Of a DNA stretch of 64,000 nt, positions 35,825 through 45,260 are shown piece after piece. The stretch covers positions 62,001 through 126,000 of the forward strand of contig NZ_PQVH01000013.1 of the NCBI RefSeq assembly GCF_004661485.1, read 5' to 3'. The notes beneath the pieces were generated by a model. That model was not told where the DNA came from. It saw only the letters and a list, made by a program, of their open reading frames with translations, and made no database searches. This stretch comes from Methylotenera oryzisoli (GTDB lineage Bacteria > Pseudomonadota > Gammaproteobacteria > Burkholderiales > Methylophilaceae). The stretch's first letter is position 1. Each line of letters begins with the position of its first letter. The translations under genes and the position numbers were made by a program.

Positions 35825-36487
35825 ATGTCAGAAACCATTATTAAACACGCCATTAAAACAGCAGGCACGCTCACTGCATTTGCGCTAGTGGGAACGGCCA
35901 TACTTGCTTATATATTCATCATCACGCGCGCGCCAATAGAGGCAAGTGAAGCCGAGGCACGCCTGGCTCTGTTTTCGCAGATTTTGCCGCATAACACTTA
36001 CAACAATAATCTACTGAAGACAGAACTTACTATCCCGCCTAACCCCCTACTGGGGAACCGTGTTCCTAGTAAAGCCAATATTGCCAAATTAGGAGATGAA
36101 ACTGTGGGCGTCATCCTAGAGGCAATTGCACACGATGGTTACGCTGGTGACATTAAGCTATTGCTGGCCATCCGTGCAGATGGCGCTATCAGCGGCGTAC
36201 GCGTGCTCGCACACAAAGAAACACCGGGACTTGGTGATTATATAGAAATTGAACGCAATACCTGGATCACACAGTTTAGCAATGAATCTTTAACTAAAAC
36301 CGTTGCCAAAGATTGGGCGGTGGTTAAAGATGGCGGCAAGTTCGAATACATGGCAGGTGCTACAATTACACCGCGCGCGGTCGTTAAAGCAGTGGCTAAG
36401 GCATTGCAGTTTTTTAATGAAAACAAACTCTTGTTATTAGAAAACAAAACTGCAGATAAAGTAGCGCAAAGTAAGGACGCGACATGA
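35825..36487 (+). CDS. rsxG: Electron transport complex subunit RsxG (RnfG)
   Basis: The 220-residue protein has one N-terminal helix (about 13-35) and a periplasmic FMN-binding domain with the flavinylation motif AGATITPRAV (Thr180). GYAGDIKLLLAI and HKETPGLGDYI are conserved. It overlaps the rsxE start by 4 bases (ATGA). Confidence 0.95.
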   Translation: MSETIIKHAIKTAGTLTAFALVGTAILAYIFIITRAPIEASEAEARLALFSQILPHNTYNNNLLKTELTIPPNPLLGNRVPSKANIAKLGDETVGVILEAIAHDGYAGDIKLLLAIRADGAISGVRVLAHKETPGLGDYIEIERNTWITQFSNESLTKTVAKDWAVVKDGGKFEYMAGATITPRAVVKAVAKALQFFNENKLLLLENKTADKVAQSKDAT

Positions 36488-37176
36488 GCATCTATAAAGA
36501 AATTACCCTGAATGGGATCTGGAAGCAAAACCCGGGCGTAGTGCAATTATTGGGCTTGTGCCCAACGCTGGCCGTCACCACTAGTGTCGTCAACGGAGTC
36601 AGCCTTGGCTTAGCAACAGTATTGGTCATGGCGGCAGCCAATGGCACCATTTCCCCTGTGCGTAAATATGTTCCCAACGAAATTCGCGTACCTGTATTTA
36701 TTTTAGTGATTGCAGCGTTAGTCACTGTGATTGATTTATCGATCAATGCGTTTGCACACCCACTGCATAAAGTGCTGGGGATATTTATCCCATTAATTGT
36801 AGTAAATTGCATCGTATTAGCACGCGTTGAGTCATTTGCTGCCAAAAATGCGCCAATACCATCGATTCTAGACGGATTTATGATGGGGATAGGCTTAACC
36901 TTAGTATTAGGATTGTTAGGCGGGATGCGCGAACTTGTAGGTAAAGGTACCTTATTCTCAGGCCTAGACCTTGTGTTTGGCCCAGCAGCCAAACAGTTTG
37001 TACTCACGATCATCCCGGATTATCACGGGTTCTTATTGGCAGTGTTACCACCAGGGGCATTTCTAGGCCTAGGCATGTTGATTGCGGCACGTAATTGGAT
37101 GGATATTAGAAACAAAGCAAAATCAGCTGACGAGCATACAACTACATCTGCACTGCAACCAGCGCTCCACCCCTAA
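36484..37176 (+). CDS. rsxE: Electron transport complex subunit RsxE (RnfE)
   Basis: The 230-residue protein has six helices homologous to RsxA with inverted topology (GIWKQNPGVVQLLGLCPTLAVT, LIVVNCIVLARVESFA) and the paired membrane cysteines. It is the last rsx gene; nth follows 16 bases later, as in E. coli. Confidence 0.95.
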   Translation: MSIYKEITLNGIWKQNPGVVQLLGLCPTLAVTTSVVNGVSLGLATVLVMAAANGTISPVRKYVPNEIRVPVFILVIAALVTVIDLSINAFAHPLHKVLGIFIPLIVVNCIVLARVESFAAKNAPIPSILDGFMMGIGLTLVLGLLGGMRELVGKGTLFSGLDLVFGPAAKQFVLTIIPDYHGFLLAVLPPGAFLGLGMLIAARNWMDIRNKAKSADEHTTTSALQPALHP

Positions 37177-37192
37177 CCTGTCAATACAACCT

Positions 37193-37858
37193 ATGAATGC
37201 AGAAAAACGCTTAGAGATATTTAAACGCTTAAAGTTAGCCATCCCTAATCCAGCCACAGAACTAAATTACAGCACGACTTTTGAATTGCTGATTGCGGTA
37301 ATGCTGTCAGCACAGGCCACGGATAAGAGCGTGAATCTAGCCACAGATAAGCTTTTTCCTATCGCCAACACGCCAGAAAGCATTTTGGCATTGGGACTTG
37401 AAAATTTAGAGCATTACATTAAAACCATCGGCTTGTACCACTCTAAAGCCAAAAATGTATTAGCTACCTGCCAAATATTGATACAAAAACACCAATCGCA
37501 AGTGCCACATTCGCGCAGCGCATTAGAGGCGTTGCCAGGCGTTGGCCGTAAAACTGCCAACGTGGTGTTAAATACAGCATTTGGTGAACCTACCATCGCT
37601 GTGGATACGCATTTATTTAGGCTGGGCAACCGCATCAAGCTCGCTACAGGCAAAACCGTGCTGGATGTAGAAAAAAAATACATTAAAACCATTCCGGCAG
37701 AGTTCATGCAGGATGCGCATCATCTGCTTATTTTACATGGGCGCTATGTCTGCACTGCACGCAAACCTAAGTGTGCAGAATGCTGCATAGAAGACCTATG
37801 CGAATATCAGGCCAAAGAATACTACCTGCCACCTAACGCTGGCGTCACCAAAGAATGA
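37193..37858 (+). CDS. nth: Endonuclease III
   Basis: The 221-residue DNA glycosylase/AP lyase has the helix-hairpin-helix LPGVGRKTANVVLNTAFG with the catalytic lysine, the catalytic aspartate in AVDTH, and the [4Fe-4S] motif C-x6-C-x2-C-x5-C (CTARKPKCAECCIEDLC). It removes oxidised pyrimidines. I use ATG 37193 (MNAEKRLEIFKRLK); the longer frame overlaps rsxE. Its stop overlaps the FIST gene start (ATGA). Confidence 0.97.
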   Translation: MNAEKRLEIFKRLKLAIPNPATELNYSTTFELLIAVMLSAQATDKSVNLATDKLFPIANTPESILALGLENLEHYIKTIGLYHSKAKNVLATCQILIQKHQSQVPHSRSALEALPGVGRKTANVVLNTAFGEPTIAVDTHLFRLGNRIKLATGKTVLDVEKKYIKTIPAEFMQDAHHLLILHGRYVCTARKPKCAECCIEDLCEYQAKEYYLPPNAGVTKE

Positions 37859-38934
37859 AAGTCGCCACCAGCATTGTATTGGGGCGTCAGGCACAGCCTG
37901 CACTTGCTGCGCAGGCCGTGAACAATGCCATGAGCAAAGCTGGAATCACTAGCGCCAACGCTGTGATACTGTTATTGACCTCAGAGTTTGCAAGCAACCC
38001 GCAAGCTGCTATTAAAGCCGCGGCCAAGGCTGCAGCTTGCACGCAAGTCACGGGTTGCTCGGCAACTGGCATCTTTACTGAAGAAGACTGGGTGTTGGAT
38101 ACGCCTGCAGCCGCAGCAATGGTGTTTGGCGGCGATATCAAGCTCGAGTTGGCACGCCACAACCATAACCTGCAGCCACTGTTGACGATTGCAGCACCGA
38201 GTGCAATTAATAGTACATGGCTCGACCACCACACGCGCTATGGCGGTATTTCTGGCGACGTTACCGGACAAGGGCCATTCTCGGTATGGCAAAATGCAAA
38301 AGGGGATGTAACAGGCCATATCGAGATGTTTATATCTGGAGTAAAGATGGCAACTCAGGCCGCGCATGGTTTAAGCTTGCTTAGCCCCCCCAAGCTGATA
38401 CAGACCAGCCAGCAGTTTGATGTGCAGCAGCTAGGCAAACATAAAGCGCTTAGATCCTTACAAAAAGCTTGGGATAGCTACCGCAAGACACCAGAGCCCT
38501 TACCGCTACATTTAATCATGGCGGTATATGGTGATAGTGAAAAGGCGATTCTGCAGGGGAATTATCATCAAACCACGATTATCAGTTGTGACGAAGCTGA
38601 CGGCAGCGTCACACTCGCACACACCTTGCCCGTGGGGCAATATTTAAGCTGGGCACTGCGTGATGCCAACAGCGCCCAAGCGGACATGCTGCTAGCGACA
38701 GACGCACTATCAACAGCGCTAGGCAGCACCCCAGACTTTGGCCTACTATTTTCCTGCCTAGGGAGAGGACCATACTTATACGATGGAGAAGACCTAGACC
38801 TAAAAGTCGTGACCAAGCGCTTCCCAAACATGCCATTATTAGGCTTTTATGGTAACGGTGAAATTGCCTGTATCAATGGGCAGAATCAGCTACTCCCCTA
38901 CTCTACCGTTCTTTCATTATTTTCAGCGTTATAG
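37855..38934 (+). CDS. FIST-domain protein
   Basis: The 359-residue soluble protein shows the FIST N domain (about 20-190: VILLLTSEF, QVTGCSATGIFTEEDW, MVFGGDI) and FIST C domain (about 200-355: LPLHLIMAVYG, LFSCLGRGPYLYDGEDLD, LLGFYGNGEIACING). FIST is a sensory, probably small-ligand-binding fold often linked to signal transduction. Here it stands alone without an output domain, overlaps nth and lies 16 bases before the DUF1841 gene that leads to an ECF sigma factor. That context makes a sensory role in the same unit possible, which is inference. Confidence 0.85.
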   Translation: MKVATSIVLGRQAQPALAAQAVNNAMSKAGITSANAVILLLTSEFASNPQAAIKAAAKAAACTQVTGCSATGIFTEEDWVLDTPAAAAMVFGGDIKLELARHNHNLQPLLTIAAPSAINSTWLDHHTRYGGISGDVTGQGPFSVWQNAKGDVTGHIEMFISGVKMATQAAHGLSLLSPPKLIQTSQQFDVQQLGKHKALRSLQKAWDSYRKTPEPLPLHLIMAVYGDSEKAILQGNYHQTTIISCDEADGSVTLAHTLPVGQYLSWALRDANSAQADMLLATDALSTALGSTPDFGLLFSCLGRGPYLYDGEDLDLKVVTKRFPNMPLLGFYGNGEIACINGQNQLLPYSTVLSLFSAL

Positions 38935-38949
38935 CGCAATAGGTATTTT

Positions 38950-39387
38950 ATGAGTTTATATAACCCGAGCCGCGACCAAGCCAGACAGTTTTTATTTGAC
39001 GCATGGGCAAAGTTTAAACAACACGTCCAGCTCTCAGATTTAGAGAAAATTGCGATCGAGGTGATGCAAATGCACCCCGAATATCACACGATACTAGATG
39101 CGCCAGAGCGCTATATGCAGCAACAGTACTTTCCAGAAATGGGGGAAACCAATCCGTTTCTGCATTTAAGCCTGCATTTATCTGTGATTGAGCAAATATC
39201 CATCAATCAACCCATCGGCATTCATGGTATTTACGAACAGCTCAAACAAAAACATCAAGACCAACACCTTGCACAACACGATATCTTAGAATGCCTCGCC
39301 GAAACCATATGGCAATCACAGCGCAATAACACACCATTAGACTCTGCGCACTACCTGAGCCTATTACAACAAAGAGTGGCGGCTTGA
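38950..39387 (+). CDS. DUF1841 family protein
   Basis: The 145-residue protein has the family features NPSRDQARQFLFDAWAKF, ILDAPERYMQQQYFPE and GETNPFLHLSLHLSVIEQ (His-rich helix). It is soluble and largely helical; the function is unknown. It is conserved in betaproteobacteria. One base separates its stop from the sigma factor start, so the two are co-translated. Confidence 0.85.
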   Translation: MSLYNPSRDQARQFLFDAWAKFKQHVQLSDLEKIAIEVMQMHPEYHTILDAPERYMQQQYFPEMGETNPFLHLSLHLSVIEQISINQPIGIHGIYEQLKQKHQDQHLAQHDILECLAETIWQSQRNNTPLDSAHYLSLLQQRVAA

Positions 39388-39388
39388 T

Positions 39389-39946
39389 ATGCACAGCAAT
39401 GTTCACGACTGGCTGAATGAACATGGGGATTACTTATATCGCTTTGCCCTAGCGCGATTAAAAGATACGCATCAGGCAGAGGACGCCGTACAAGAAACCA
39501 TGCTCGCAGCAATTAAGCACAATAGTTTTGCAGGTGATTCATCAGTACGCACCTGGCTCACCGGCATACTCAAACATAAAGTAGTGGATATGCAGCGCAA
39601 GCTGATCCGTGAACAGCCGATATCAGACATTATTGATTTAGATGCTGGCGAAGAAAGCATGGATGACTTCTTTGACAAAACCGGGCATTGGCTAGACAAG
39701 CCGCAATCTTTTGACATGCCAGACCATGCGCTAGAGCAAAGCCAGTTTTTAAGTGTACTGGATGCTTGCATGCAAAAACTACCAAAGAAACTTAAAGCCA
39801 TTTTTATGTTAAGAGACGTACATGAAATGGAGAATGAAAATATTTGTAAGGAACTCGATATTACGCCGACCAATGCTTGGGTAATGTTGTATAGAGCTAG
39901 GATGGTGTTAAGAAAATGTTTAGAGATGAACTGGGTTAAAGGCTAG
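39389..39946 (+). CDS. ECF-type RNA polymerase sigma factor
   Basis: The 185-residue protein has region 2 (DYLYRFALARLKDTHQAEDAVQ in pieces, then ETMLAA and FAGDSSVRTWLTGILKHKVVDMQRK) and region 4 (LPKKLKAIFMLRDVHEMENENICKELDITPTNAWVMLYRARMVLRKCLE, quoted by its ends). A variable acidic linker lies between them (about 75-115). It should direct RNA polymerase to a small regulon, most likely including the metal-peptide operon just downstream. It is followed directly by its likely anti-sigma factor. Confidence 0.93.
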   Translation: MHSNVHDWLNEHGDYLYRFALARLKDTHQAEDAVQETMLAAIKHNSFAGDSSVRTWLTGILKHKVVDMQRKLIREQPISDIIDLDAGEESMDDFFDKTGHWLDKPQSFDMPDHALEQSQFLSVLDACMQKLPKKLKAIFMLRDVHEMENENICKELDITPTNAWVMLYRARMVLRKCLEMNWVKG

Positions 39947-39949
39947 GTG

Positions 39950-40213
39950 ATGAATATGATGACCTGTAAACAAGCCAGCAAACTCATCTCGCAATCTCTG
40001 GACCGTCCGTTATCTTGGTCTGAACTTATGCAGTTAAAACTGCATCTCATGATTTGCGGTGCATGTAACCGATTCAAAAAACAATTGAATCTACTGCGTG
40101 TAGCACTGCAAAGCATCAGAACCAATATGGAAAACAATAGTGCTATTACGCTCCCATTAGCAGCAAAGGCGAGAATAATTGATCAGATAGAATCTGATCA
40201 GCAATCTCAGTAA
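39950..40213 (+). CDS. Putative zinc-type anti-sigma factor
   Basis: The 87-residue protein has Cys6 and the H-x3-C-x2-C motif HLMICGAC (His32, Cys36, Cys39) of ZAS/zf-HC2 anti-sigma factors. There is no membrane segment, so it would be a soluble sensor, possibly of metal or thiol stress. A GTG at 39947 lies immediately before the ATG and either could be used; AAAGG precedes them. Its position directly after the sigma gene is the classical sigma/anti-sigma arrangement. Confidence 0.82.
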   Translation: MNMMTCKQASKLISQSLDRPLSWSELMQLKLHLMICGACNRFKKQLNLLRVALQSIRTNMENNSAITLPLAAKARIIDQIESDQQSQ

Positions 40214-40263
40214 CTTTCGTTAATTGCAATTAGCGGTAACTCTTTAAATTAAAGGAAACGATA

Positions 40264-40590
40264 ATGAACAAAACACAAAAAACCATTTCTCTTGCTATCG
40301 GTGGCGCATTAGCGCTTTCAGTTGCAGCAACCACAGTCAATGCGGCAGAAAACCCATTTACATTAAAAACGCTTGCTAATGGCTACCAAGTAGCTGATGC
40401 GCACGATGCAAAATCTGCCGATGGCAAATGTGGCACAGGTAAGTGTGGCACCGCTGAAAAAGCCAAAGAAATGAAAATGCAAGATGCAAAATGTGGCTCC
40501 AGCAAGACCAGCAGTGCAGAAAAAGCAAAAGAAGGCTCATGTGGCGGTGAGAAAGCCAAAGAGGGCTCTTGCGGCGGTGAGAAAAAATAA
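40264..40590 (+). CDS. hvfA: HvfA/bufferin-like cysteine-rich precursor peptide
   Basis: The 108-residue protein has a Sec signal peptide (cleavage near VNA-A27/A28), then FTLKTLANGYQVADAHD, and a low-complexity tail with five cysteines (56, 61, 77, 93, 103), each followed by glycine: DGKCG, TGKCG, DAKCG and two EGSCG repeats spaced by EKAK. In the HvfA/bufferin family such EGKCG-like cysteines are converted by a DUF692 enzyme to oxazolone-thioamide or thiooxazole groups that bind copper. Modification here is inferred from the adjacent hvfB- and hvfC-like genes. GGAAACG precedes the ATG. It is likely transcribed from its own sigma-dependent start and with the upstream genes. Confidence 0.88.
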   Translation: MNKTQKTISLAIGGALALSVAATTVNAAENPFTLKTLANGYQVADAHDAKSADGKCGTGKCGTAEKAKEMKMQDAKCGSSKTSSAEKAKEGSCGGEKAKEGSCGGEKK

Positions 40591-40613
40591 GCACCAGCAG
40601 ATTGATATAGTGC

Positions 40614-41525
40614 ATGATGAATCGTAGTCCAATTCATGGCGCAGGTCTGGGGTTGAAGCGTGAGCTGATACCCCAGATTCAGTCACTCGACAACCAAACA
40701 TTAATTTCCAATCTCCAGTTTGTAGAAATAGCACCAGAAAATTGGATAGATGCGGGCAGCAAAGCAAGCAAACAGCTAGATTGGTTTGCAGCACGCTATC
40801 CTATCGTATGTCATGGTCTTTGCTTATCCCTAGGCGGCATCAGCCCGCTAAATATTGATTTCCTGCAACAAGTGAAGCAGTTCTTAAACCAGTATGACAT
40901 TGATATCTACACTGAGCATTTAAGCTATTGCACAGATGGTTACCAAGGTAAGCAGGGCTATTTATACGACCTGTTACCCATCCCATTTACCGAAGAAGCT
41001 GTACATTATGTAGCAAAGCGCATTCGCCAAACCCAAGACATACTAGGCAGGCGCATCGGCATAGAGAACGCCTCGTTTTATGCGGCGGCTCCAATCTCAG
41101 AAATGAGCGAGCTAACCTTTCTTAACGCAGTGCTAAGTGAAGCAGATTGCCTGTTGCACCTGGATATTAATAACATATACGTCAACAGCGTGAATTTCAA
41201 TTTTGATGCACCTTCATTCTTGCGTGGCATACCGCATGAGCGCATTATTTATAGCCATATCGCAGGGCACTATCAACAATCGCCAGATTTACTCATTGAT
41301 ACGCATGGTGAAGATGTCATCGACCCGGTTTGGGCGCTCTTAAAAGACGCTTACGACTTATTTGGCGTGTTCCCTACCTTACTAGAGCGCGATAGCAATA
41401 TTCCAACGCTAGGCACCTTGATACATGAAGTGAACAAAATCGCTGATTTGCAGCGTCAGGCGATACCACGCCCCAGTAAGCTTGATGGAAATCGGCCTAC
41501 ACCTCTGACCATTTCAATCAGTTAA
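40614..41525 (+). CDS. hvfB: DUF692 (MNIO) peptide-modifying enzyme, HvfB-like
   Basis: The 303-residue TIM-barrel protein shows the multinuclear non-haem iron ligands of the family: the histidine in IVCHGLCLSLGG, the glutamate in IGIENASFY, the aspartate in LLHLDINNIYVNS, the histidines in YSHIAGHY, the DTHGEDV motif and the glutamate of LERDSNIP. Such enzymes oxidise cysteines of precursor peptides. The probable substrate is the peptide encoded 24 bases upstream. The next gene, 6 bases away, is the DUF2063 partner. Confidence 0.94.
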   Translation: MMNRSPIHGAGLGLKRELIPQIQSLDNQTLISNLQFVEIAPENWIDAGSKASKQLDWFAARYPIVCHGLCLSLGGISPLNIDFLQQVKQFLNQYDIDIYTEHLSYCTDGYQGKQGYLYDLLPIPFTEEAVHYVAKRIRQTQDILGRRIGIENASFYAAAPISEMSELTFLNAVLSEADCLLHLDINNIYVNSVNFNFDAPSFLRGIPHERIIYSHIAGHYQQSPDLLIDTHGEDVIDPVWALLKDAYDLFGVFPTLLERDSNIPTLGTLIHEVNKIADLQRQAIPRPSKLDGNRPTPLTISIS

Positions 41526-41530
41526 CCATC

Positions 41531-42283
41531 ATGACCAACGAACTGCCCAGCTTTCAGCAATATCAATTAGCCTTTACTGCACGCTTACGCGACACACGCA
41601 ACCAACCGATTCCGGTGGGGGTTGCGCCTGAACGCATGGCAATTTATGACGAAATTGTATTTAACAATCTGTTGGAATCTGTCTCTGCATGTTTTCCAGT
41701 CGCACGTAAGACCATCGGTAAAGCTGACTGGCTAAAGTTGGTACGAGCTTTTTTAAAAGAGCACGCTGCAGATTCGCCACTATTCCGCAAAATTCCAGAA
41801 GAGTTCTTAGCCTTTTTGCAGCACACCAATCTGGCGTTGCCACCTTATTTGCAGGCGCTATGCCACTATGAATGGATAGAGCTTTACCTGAGTGCCTTAC
41901 CCGCACCCAATCATCAAGATGTAGACATACATGGTGATATAGCGCGCCAAGTTTTAATATTTACACAGACTATGCAGCTGCTGGCGTACGACTACGCCGT
42001 GCACAAGATATCCCCTAGACATAAACCTAAGGATAAAGCGCCCACGTCTCTGCTGGTACACCGTGATATAAACGACAAAATTAAATTTATCGAGCTAAAT
42101 CCGATGACATTTAAATTGATTACGCTATTAAAATCTGGAGAGTTGACTGCACAACAAGCACTAAACATGCTTGCGGATGAATTAAAACACCCCCAACCAC
42201 AAATCATCATGCAATTTGGATTAGGAGTTTTACTAGACTTGAAAAACCAAGGAATTATTCTTGGTACAGCACCACAGGTATGA
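41531..42283 (+). CDS. hvfC: DUF2063 protein, HvfC-like RiPP recognition partner
   Basis: The 250-residue protein starts with the DUF2063 N-terminal helical domain (LPSFQQYQLAFTARLRDT, ERMAIYDEIVFNNLLESVSACFPVARKTIG) and has a C-terminal region (about 150-245) resembling a winged-helix peptide-binding part. In this family it binds the precursor and the DUF692 enzyme. No DoxX-type HvfD follows; the next gene is on the other strand. Confidence 0.9.
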   Translation: MTNELPSFQQYQLAFTARLRDTRNQPIPVGVAPERMAIYDEIVFNNLLESVSACFPVARKTIGKADWLKLVRAFLKEHAADSPLFRKIPEEFLAFLQHTNLALPPYLQALCHYEWIELYLSALPAPNHQDVDIHGDIARQVLIFTQTMQLLAYDYAVHKISPRHKPKDKAPTSLLVHRDINDKIKFIELNPMTFKLITLLKSGELTAQQALNMLADELKHPQPQIIMQFGLGVLLDLKNQGIILGTAPQV

Positions 42284-42321
42284 TCATCGACGCCTGCCGA
42301 AGAACATACCATTGCCCTTAT

Positions 42322-42516
42322 TTAATCGAAACTAACGGTCTCGCCCTGGCGCGTTTCTAACACAGAAAGCAAGCTCTGCTGCTCAGATGGGTGCATATCC
42401 CACCACCCCTTAATTTCTGGAATGGTACGATAACATCCATGGCAAAAGCCTGTTGTTTCATCAATGCTACAAACCCCGATACAAGGGGATTGCACTTCTA
42501 CTGTATTGTCTGACAT
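42322..42516 (-). CDS. DUF1289 family small protein
   Basis: The 64-residue protein has the cysteine pattern [22 protein letters not shown] (C-x3-C...C-x2-C) and the GWW motif of the family, probably a small metal-binding module. I start it at ATG 42516 (MSDNTVEVQ); the longer frame overlaps secA. It lies 14 bases after secA on the same strand. Function unknown. Confidence 0.85.
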
Positions 42517-42530
42517 TGCTAACCCTATTC

Positions 42531-45260
42531 TTAACTTAATACGCCATGGCACTGCTTGTATTTTTTACCCGAACCGCATGGGCATAGGTCATTACGGCCT
42601 ACTTTAACGCCATCACGCACCATCGGCTGCTGCGCAGCAACATTCGTCTCAGCGGCATCTGATGTATCACCTGCCAGCGCTTCTGCATAGTCTGCATGTT
42701 GGTATTGTACGTTTTCAACTTCTACTGGTCTTTCCACCGCCTCAACATCCGCCTCAGTTTTCACCTGTACCAACATAGTCACTTTGGTTACTTCTGTTTT
42801 GATGATATTGAGCAAGCCTTCAAAGAGTTCAAATGCCTCACGTTTATATTCCTGTTTAGGATTTTTCTGTGCATAAGAACGTAAATGAATTCCTTGGCGC
42901 AGATGGTCCAACGCAGCCAAATGTTCACGCCAGTGGTTATCTAGACTTTGCAACATCACTGAACGTTCAAACTGACGCAAGATATCTGGGCTAGCCAAAT
43001 CTTCTTTTGCTTGATACGCCGCATTGGCCGCTGCAAGGATGCGCTCACGCAATGTTTCTTCGTGCAGGTCGGGGTTCTCTTCCAACATTTTCTGCAATGG
43101 AACCTCTAACCCAAGATCAGCCTTCAACTCACGCTCTAACGCTGGCACATCCCACAGTTCTTCCACGCTATCAGGCGGAATATGGGTAGCCACCATGGTC
43201 ACAATCACGTCTTCACGCATGGCTTTAATGGTTTCACCGACATCCGCAGCTTCTAGCAGCTCATTGCGTTGCTCGTAAATTACTTTACGTTGGTCATTCG
43301 ATACATCATCAAACTCTAATAATTGCTTACGAATGTCAAAGTTACGGCCTTCAACCTTACGTTGTGCGTTTTCAATCGCACGCGTGACCCAAGGATGCTC
43401 AATAGCCTCGCCATCCGGCATATTCAGCTTGCCCATAATCGCTGAAACGCGATCAGAAGCAAAGATTCTTAGTAATTGGTCTTCTAAAGATAAATAGAAG
43501 CGGCTAGAGCCCACGTCACCTTGGCGACCTGAACGTCCACGTAGTTGATTATCTACACGACGTGATTCATGGCGTTCGGTACCTACGATATGTAAACCAC
43601 CGGCTGCCAACACAGCATCATGCACCTGCTGCCAAGCAGCTTTAATCTCGGCCACGCGGCTTTCTTTTTGCGCAGCGGTCAATGACTCATCATCATGCAC
43701 TGCAGCGATTTCAGGCTCAGGATTACCACCCAACACAATATCGGTACCGCGGCCTGCCATATTGGTAGCAATGGTAATTACACCCGGACGCCCTGCTTGT
43801 ACAATAATATGTGCTTCACGCTCATGTTGCTTCGCGTTTAATACCTGATGTTCCAGATTAGCCTCAGTCAATAATTTAGAAATCAGCTCGGAGTTCTCAA
43901 TTGAGGTCGTACCCACCAACACTGGCTGTCCGCGGCTTTGGCAATCTTTAATATCTAAAATTACCGCCTCGTATTTCTCACGTGAGGTTCTGTACACTTT
44001 ATCCATTGCATCCTTACGTTGCATCGGGCGATGTGTAGGAATCACAACGGTTTCTAGGCCATAAATCTGGTTAAATTCGTAAGCTTCGGTATCGGCAGTA
44101 CCTGTCATCCCAGACAGCTTGTTGTACATACGGAAGTAATTCTGGAAAGTAATGGATGCCAGCGTTTGGTTTTCTTTTTGAATCTCAACGCCTTCTTTAG
44201 CCTCAACGGCTTGGTGCAGACCATCAGACCAGCGGCGGCCAGCCATCATACGGCCAGTAAACTCATCCACAATCACGATTTCACCATCACGCACAACATA
44301 GTGCTGGTCGCGATGGTAAAGGTTACGTGCACGTAGCGAAGCATATAGATGATGCACTAAAGTAATATTAGATGCCTCATATAAACTTGAGCCTTCAGCT
44401 AATAAACCAGCCTCGGCCAACACCGCCTCAGCATGCTCATGGCCTTGTTCAGACATCACCACATTCTGTGCTTTTTCATCCACCCAGAAGTCGCCTTCGC
44501 CTTCTTCCTCTTTTTGCGGAATCAGTTTGGCAGCCACTTCATTGATTTGCGTATACAGGGCAACGCTATCATCTGCCTGACCTGAAATAATCAGCGGCGT
44601 ACGTGCTTCGTCAATTAAAATCGAATCTACTTCATCGATCAATGCATAGTTCAACCCACGTTGCACGCGCTCTTCACGGCTATACACCATGTTGTCACGC
44701 AGGTAGTCAAAACCAAACTCGTTATTGGTACCGTAAGTAATGTCTGCCGCATAAGCTGCACGTTTAGCTTCATTAGGCATTTGCGATAAGTTAATACCGA
44801 TTGATAATCCTAAAAAGTTATAAAGCTTACCCATCCACTCCGCGTCACGCTTTGCTAGGTAATCATTCACTGTAATGACATGTACGCCTTTACCAGTGAT
44901 CGCATTCAGGTAGGTAGGCAAAGTTGCTACCAAGGTTTTACCTTCACCAGTACGCATTTCAGAAATTTTGCCAGCGTTCAGCACCATCCCGCCGATGAGC
45001 TGTACATCAAAGTGGCGCATCCCTAAAGCACGGCGACCGCCTTCGCGTACCACAGCAAATGCTTCTGGAAGCAATTTTTCCAAAGATTCGCCATTGGCAA
45101 AACGTTGCTTAAACTCCTCTGTTTTCGCGCGTAGGCCATCATCACTCAACGCCTGCATTGCAGGCTCTAATGCATTAATTTGCTCTACTTTCTGTGCATA
45201 TTGCTTAACCAGCCTATCGTTACGGCTACCGAATAATTTTTTGAACAACGTAGATATCAT
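42531..45260 (-). CDS. secA: Protein translocase ATPase SecA
   Basis: The 909-residue motor protein has Walker [18 protein letters not shown] (101-117), Walker [20 protein letters not shown], the preprotein cross-linking domain, the second helicase domain ([40 protein letters not shown] cut short here) and a C-terminal zinc motif [14 protein letters not shown]. It drives export through SecYEG. The length fits E. coli SecA (901). It starts with ATG 45260. Confidence 0.98.

Follow-up and report, generated by a model that had tools for sequence, protein, structure and literature searches.

A five-gene set on a 64-kb window of the Methylotenera oryzisoli genome (the whole analysed stretch of 64,000 nucleotides, contig NZ_PQVH01000013.1, positions 62,001 to 126,000; all positions below are counted within it) appears from family matches to be a captophorin/oxazolin (HvfABC) cassette with a regulator of the SigE/MseR type. 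We propose, with a probability of roughly 0.78, that this captophorin system forms one arm of a split regulon in which promoters inside the sigma factor gene, before msrPQ and before hvfX would all be read by the SigE/MseR-type sigma factor. The five open reading frames (ORFs) lie on the plus strand between 39389 and 42283 and encode an extracytoplasmic function (ECF) sigma factor, an anti-sigma factor, a precursor peptide, a DUF692 enzyme (HvfB) and a DUF2063 protein (HvfC), in that order. The proposal rests on gene content, motif conservation and co-loss, all observed directly.

Promoter motifs in the sigma factor gene and before msrP and hvfX

Comparisons were made with an HvfB-based locus set (best 80 of 569 relatives) and with the family Methylophilaceae, by which we mean 81 loci (the window, L002-L057, L059, L065, L069 and L076, plus L219-L238 from a family-level search) assigned by HvfB similarity and by record title, which for some is no finer than Proteobacteria or the like, and including some species twice. 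The sequence GTAAGG...GACTAA was first spotted by eye 5' of msrP, where it was noticed because of its likeness to the meningococcal SigE consensus, GTMAGBWTT / CGTCTAAH with a spacer of 12-13 (PMC2893595). Written as GTAAG-N16-[CA]GAC[TC]AA, the motif is close to that consensus in sequence and spacing, yet has GAC in its -10 element where Neisseria has GTC. GTAA[GC]...CTAA precedes msrP at a fixed length of 28 nt in 20/30 family loci. Among genomes sampled for msrPQ (the 30 best-matching family loci and 20 hand-picked to include hvfB-negative genomes, hvfB status being called at E 1e-70), a relaxed motif stands before msrP in 27/33 hvfB-positive versus 3/17 hvfB-negative genomes, and in 1/1000 mononucleotide-shuffled upstream sequences. 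Of the hvfB-negative genomes, the three that have the motif (G107, G123, G173) are 72-89% complete, so hvfB may be missing from the assembly only. A second copy occupies the msrQ-hvfX gap in 22/29 hvfX-bearing loci. A putative SigE-type promoter thus precedes msrP and hvfX in most hvfB-bearing family genomes, which is a new observation. Two hvfB-negative loci (L294, L299) keep the motif after msrQ though no hvfX was found behind it, resembling a left-over promoter.

The same motif is present inside the sigma factor gene of the window, where positions 39846-39873 (plus strand) read GTAAGGAACTCGATATTACGCCGACCAA, with GTAAG at 39846-39850, a 16-nt spacer as in the msrP copy and CGACCAA at 39867-39873. 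This is the sole match to the relaxed motif on both strands of the window, with 0.28 expected per shuffled strand, and it is the predicted driver of the anti-sigma and hvfABC genes. Of 53 sigma genes taken for comparison (short ORFs were not taken), 51 were readable, three of these being non-family; L026 and L077 were dropped, the amino-acid pattern being absent from them. GTAAG-N15-17-CGAC(C/T)AA is present in 43/51 of the readable genes, compared with 1.2 expected from codon resampling at each locus and a maximum of 8 in 20000 simulations, and seven of the eight non-matching genes have G at the C/T position. A column-wise test of the family genes points to the same codons, with Cys153 written TGT and Lys154 written AAG in 49/49 genes each (expected 23.1 and 16.6 respectively).

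A relaxed match lies within 1.6 kb 5' of hvfB in 51/52 family loci with a sigma gene and in 0/8 without one (3 of the 8 short-flanked). The motif stands directly before hvfA in L228, which has no adjacent sigma gene, and before hvfX in L227; the copies in L146 and L259 are some 440 nt 5' of hvfB, at the expected beginning of hvfA. Upstream matches were found in 25/180 loci (the 180 include 20 from the family) and in 12/1800 mononucleotide shuffles. L228 has another copy at about position 364 on the reverse strand, before an ORF whose product seems to start like an exported protein, a possible extra regulon member. Of 28 further TIGR02943 loci from the same taxonomic class, 9 match in frame at this position of the peptide if the fifth base of the -10 element is left free, and one of these has CGTC. 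Other searches were uninformative: scanning 36400-42700 for sigma-70 promoters and terminators gave fewer promoter-like sites than shuffled sequence (4 vs 11.7) and nothing useful, an exact CGTCTAA-type search of the cassette gave no usable site, and the motif pattern with a shorter spacer had no matches. As the motif lies within the sigma gene, active sigma factor should transcribe the anti-sigma and hvfABC genes, not its own. No sigma-internal promoter for a copper-peptide operon was found in the literature among the matches listed.

hvfX beside msrPQ

The original prediction held that the DoxX protein (HvfD) was absent. None is encoded within the cassette, as stated, but absence from the genome does not hold, HvfX being encoded elsewhere together with msrPQ. 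The genome has three DoxX-family genes, one of which, on contig C14 (L279 5304-5828, minus strand), scores 127.5 against NF050144 (cut-off 80) and shares 63% identity over 156 residues with the Novimethylophilus DoxX protein whose gene follows hvfC. The gene order is msrP-msrQ-hvfX, the first two being assigned by MsrP (478.9 vs 207) and MsrQ (182.6 vs 130) models. The other two DoxX-family genes (L113, L114) were rejected as HvfX, with E values of 0.04 and 0.025 against the Novimethylophilus protein. Proteins encoded 3' of hvfC in L056, L057, L066, L076 and L077 all exceeded the HvfX cut-off (5/5 scanned).

Among family loci with enough flank, hvfX adjoins msrQ in 28/32 hvfB-positive and 1/16 hvfB-negative genomes. 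hvfX is relocated next to msrPQ rather than lost. Most genomes that lack hvfB have neither hvfX nor the msrP motif, which is likewise new. One genome (G148) has hvfB with no sigma gene detected at its cassette, and has neither hvfX nor the motif at its msrPQ locus. A few EGKCG clusters are reported to carry oxidored_molybd or ferric-reductase genes, with no mention of MsrP (PMC12452194); these are the domains of MsrP and MsrQ.

The suggestion of a DoxX-less variant with differing export or redox steps fits the lack of a detected DoxX-type gene in the cassette of 71/81 family loci (some short-flanked), but is very improbable given HvfX encoded with msrPQ both in this genome and in the 28 hvfB-positive family genomes counted above.

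Gene content and conservation of the cassette

The sigma factor gene (39389..39946, plus strand, as are all features below) encodes Sigma70_r2 and r4_2 domains and scores 197.8 bits against TIGR02943 (cut-off 162.2), indicative of the SigE/RpoE2 type. It is followed by the gene for a zinc anti-sigma (ZAS) protein with a zf-HC2 domain (39956..40213; NF052368 76.5, cut-off 50), by an HvfA-type precursor gene (40264..40590), by hvfB (40614..41525), encoding an MNIO (DUF692) enzyme (PF05114 325 bits; NF003818 390.8, cut-off 360), and by hvfC (41531..42283), encoding an HvfC/PME1 partner protein with DUF2063 and NGO1945_C domains (NF050145 249.6, cut-off 142), in keeping with the DUF2063 and RRE domains expected of such partners. 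PDB sequence matches were 3bww for HvfB and 3dee for HvfC. The order and short gaps claimed for the five genes are those we find, and the claimed identity as an ECF sigma, zinc anti-sigma and HvfABC copper-peptide cassette is borne out by sigma, anti-sigma, HvfB and HvfC scores above family cut-offs. The precursor has five Cys residues, each followed by Gly (three KCG and two SCG), and a signal peptide by eye; it falls below the HvfA model (28.3 vs cut-off 95) and just above KCGExKCG_twice (20.0 vs 19.5). The expected metal ligands of the DUF692 enzyme are also in place, eleven positions that we presume to be metal ligands and catalytic base being invariant in 81/81 family HvfB proteins.

The earlier label "bufferin-like" is too loose, as the HvfB model is passed and the BufB model is not (255.8 vs 310), and a family search of the window proteins gave no Pfam match for the precursor and hence no DUF2282. 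Membership of the Bufferin-1 (DUF2282) class was rejected on these grounds, and an NrsF-type regulator on the grounds that no window protein matches NrsF and a zf-HC2 protein occupies that place. The genome has one PF05114 gene and one TIGR02943 sigma factor over cut-off. A second MNIO gene, 41-42% identical, occurs in some relatives (genomes G001, G003, G007, G013, G022, G027).

The five genes keep this order through the nearest loci of the HvfB-based set. Co-occurrence in related genomes with and without DoxX had been put forward as a check, and sigma and anti-sigma genes are detected 5' of hvfB in 69/81 family loci, beyond chance: 61 of these lack DoxX and 8 have it, with no sigma detected in the remaining 12 (some short-flanked). 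Outside the family, 12 of 160 loci have a detected sigma gene and at least 57 have DoxX, a lower bound from one query. Five family loci (L009, L020, L042, L050, L059) retain HvfABC and have no adjacent sigma and anti-sigma genes; the genomes of L009, L020, L042 and L059, several of them small and possibly incomplete assemblies, have no relative of the window sigma factor at E 1e-8, and that of L050 has only a 29% identical one. HvfABC can therefore persist after loss of the regulator.

Directly 5' of the sigma gene lies a DUF1841 gene (38950..39387, by ORF and family match) whose stop codon abuts the sigma start, which suggests that basal sigma factor is probably made with the DUF1841 gene. 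The sequence TGATTGAAT(A) recurs just 5' of the sigma start in seven loci (L019, L028, L031, L035, L040, L041, L056), with no evident ribosome-binding site.

HvfB residue 261, precursor cysteines and a hairpin in hvfB

In the characterised enzyme FonB, Phe250 lies beside the catalytic Asp and contacts substrate positions around the Cys, with a role in selectivity (PMC13097082). Its equivalent by alignment in the window HvfB is Ser261 (codon 41394..41396), which adjoins the catalytic base Asp260, a residue invariant across 241 loci. Residue 261 is Phe in 143/160 non-family loci and in 2/81 family loci (one species twice), and this apparent loss of Phe in 79/81 family loci goes with precursor Cys residues followed by Ser, His or Asn instead of Gly, with counterexamples. 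Precursors were picked by rule, which yielded none for 33/201 rows at first and for 57/241 later; from the later set a further 9 near-duplicate rows were removed. In the resulting 175 non-duplicate loci with a precursor, at least one Cys precedes a non-Gly residue in 63/83 loci without Phe or Tyr at 261 versus 18/92 with either, and in the non-family subset the counts are 9/12 versus 18/91 (Fisher p 2.3e-4, rows not independent). When alignment columns are ranked by how strongly they associate with the residue that follows Cys, column 261 comes first of 274 overall, first of 282 in the family and third of 274 outside it, where it had been first in a smaller set before 40 more loci were added.

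That the loss of Phe is drift, and that Cys residues before Ser or His remain unmodified free thiols, is a serious alternative to which we give a little less than an even chance. Among double variants, FonBC tolerated no residue but Gly or Ala after Cys (PMC13097082), L259 has Phe at 261 yet five Cys-Ser sites, and a tree-based independent-pairs test of residue 261 against the precursor was not significant, with a small sample of 5 pairs on supported branches; the window itself has Ser261, yet all five of its precursor Cys residues precede Gly. Drift is opposed by the ranking of column 261 and by the finding that FonBC modified one Cys-Tyr substrate once (PMC13097082). The pattern matters as a set of natural enzyme-substrate pairs that bear on the FonB selectivity rule.

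Codons 12-21 of hvfB (40647..40676) form a conserved predicted RNA hairpin with an outer stem and an inner AGC-GNRA-GCU element. Over 60 family loci its mean z is -3.68 against synonymous resampling, compared with a mean of -0.11 (sd 0.21, lowest -0.64) for the other sampled 10-codon hvfB windows. Pairing reaches 88.3%, a level that none of 300 column shuffles attained (maximum 86.3%) and that compares with 53.5% for slid versions, and the loop is GNRA in 57/60 loci; the predicted fold is different in L056 and L076. Rfam returned no family over threshold, with one SNORD35 match below gathering score. As a guess, the hairpin may set the precursor-to-enzyme ratio.

A soluble anti-sigma factor and its possible trigger

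With ATG 39956 chosen as the start, the anti-sigma factor has Cys4, His30, Cys34 and Cys37, numbering identical to that of Neisseria MseR (PMC2893595). These residues are conserved in 56, 59, 60 and 59 of 60 rows respectively, the four rows without the first Cys being gapped. The prediction of a soluble protein with H-x3-C-x2-C agrees with what we see, namely that motif, an N-terminal Cys and no long hydrophobic stretch by eye, hence no evident transmembrane segment. Solubility had also been taken as a departure from described systems, which is not so: the ZAS proteins MseR of Neisseria and HrsE of Haemophilus are small and cytoplasmic, so a soluble anti-sigma factor is an already known state, and the sigma factors under them have reported targets that include DoxX and HvfABC genes (PMC2893595, PMC7907618).

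Since the payload binds copper in characterised cases (PMC13097082) and Cys4/His30/Cys34/Cys37 would form a thiol-zinc site, the anti-sigma factor could itself be a direct copper sensor in which Cu(I) displaces Zn, giving a copper regulon with MsrPQ secondary. We consider this unlikely: HOCl and H2O2 both raise expression of rpoE2 in H. influenzae (PMC7907618), and we saw no metal data for this family.

The proposed regulon

Under the split-regulon reading, basal sigma and anti-sigma factors would be made with the upstream DUF1841 gene, and the soluble anti-sigma factor would keep the sigma factor bound and let it go once an oxidant or thiophilic metal perturbs the anti-sigma Cys/His zinc site, as relatives suggest. 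Free sigma factor is predicted from the conserved motifs to use GTAAG-N16-CGAC(T/C)AA at three places, in its own gene, before msrPQ and before hvfX, the sigma-internal promoter yielding a transcript of the anti-sigma and hvfABC genes. As that transcript would make anti-sigma and not sigma factor, the response would carry its own brake. By analogy with characterised homologues, HvfBC would turn HvfA cysteines into copper-binding 5-thiooxazoles before export, HvfX would act in the membrane, and MsrPQ, whose families are known to repair oxidised periplasmic methionine, would do so here. Promoter activity, signal and peptide chemistry in this scheme are all predictions from sequence and homology.

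The alternative of a plain operon, transcribed only from a promoter 5' of DUF1841 or of the sigma gene and with the intra-sigma sequence conserved merely as region 4 coding, draws on the location of the site within the conserved CKELDITPTN segment of the sigma factor and on a DUF1841-sigma gap of at most 35 nt, overlaps included, in 36/48 family loci. We regard it as quite improbable, because amino-acid constraint leaves the codon choices unexplained (43/51 against 1.2 expected) and because the same motif and spacing recur before msrP, before hvfX and before hvfA of L228, which has no adjacent sigma gene.

Several points nonetheless weigh against a split regulon. CGACTAA alone matches only 2/51 sigma genes, and the CGACCAA form was admitted after it had been seen in the window and msrP upstream sequences; the codon null behind the 1.2 expected counts related genes as independent; and sigma codons 61 and 175 are also unusually conserved. 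The internal copy is present in only 6/12 non-family loci with an adjacent sigma gene (L058, L060, L061, L068, L260, L261). Six hvfB-positive genomes have no counted msrP motif, one of them (L302) having a motif outside the scanned range, and the hvfB-negative genomes sit in few genera, which makes the co-loss counts non-independent. The strict pattern has 2 matches in the M. oryzisoli genome versus 1 for a reversed control, and the motif alone is therefore not specific. Finally, meningococcal SigE is not induced by H2O2, diamide or singlet oxygen (PMC2893595).

Two side observations concern these sites. The conserved stretches at sigma codons 57-61 and around 175 are CTC/ATA and AGA, distant from the motif. 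One strict match in the M. oryzisoli genome (L310 1501-1527, minus strand; C11:139612-139638) lies antisense within an ORF, presumably for a lytic transglycosylase, and is possibly there by chance.

If the split regulon is correct, shared motifs and co-loss connect MsrPQ, and with it methionine repair in the periplasm, to captophorins and the uncharacterised HvfX, a link that suggests a single response to copper or oxidant damage of the envelope. The motif would also be a concrete means of finding this regulon in other genomes, and the promoter within sigma region-4 codons a natural overlapping code. A fuller scheme is conceivable and, taken whole, rather doubtful: a three-promoter Methylophilaceae regulon whose key promoter, in synonymous region-4 codons, is read by the very domain they encode and makes its own inhibitor and the copper peptide, together with a relaxed HvfB gate that has lost Phe at 261 and accepts Cys-Ser and Cys-His, and an hvfB hairpin that sets the precursor-to-enzyme ratio.

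Comparison with known systems

The nearest payloads are the captophorin clusters hvf of H. influenzae, ngo of N. gonorrhoeae and fon of F. thermophila (PMC13097082, PMC13419390), with which the cassette shares HvfB and HvfC proteins that pass the NCBIfam cut-offs, a presumed set of ligands and base that is invariant, and a signal-peptide precursor with xGxCG repeats. It differs in that hvfX lies outside the cluster with msrPQ, the FonB Phe250 equivalent is Ser and the window precursor is far below the HvfA equivalog cut-off. Bufferin-1 (DUF2282)/NrsF systems likewise combine MNIO and DUF2063 copper peptides with sigma genes (PMC12452194), but with a DUF2282 precursor and an NrsF anti-sigma factor, neither of which is found here.

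In regulation the closest match is the Neisseria SigE-MseR system, NMB2140-2145 (PMC2893595, PMC3240639), with its SigE-type sigma factor, a soluble ZAS protein whose Cys/His positions are identical, genes for DoxX and HvfABC-like proteins, a methionine sulfoxide reductase in the regulon, and a closely similar promoter consensus. The Neisseria operon, however, begins with doxX and includes the sigma gene, giving positive feedback, whereas here the motif is within the sigma gene, and the reductases are MsrA/MsrB there and MsrPQ here. H. influenzae RpoE2-HrsE also has a small cytoplasmic ZAS protein, and its regulon takes in methionine sulfoxide reductases as well as a DoxX/HvfABC cluster (PMC7907618), but there the sigma gene is not adjacent to that cluster. 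The sigma-internal design itself has a precedent in C. glutamicum SigH-RshA, where a sigma-dependent promoter within the sigma coding region drives the anti-sigma gene (PMC3489674); motif and regulon are different, and only rshA is transcribed there, whereas hvfABC would follow here.

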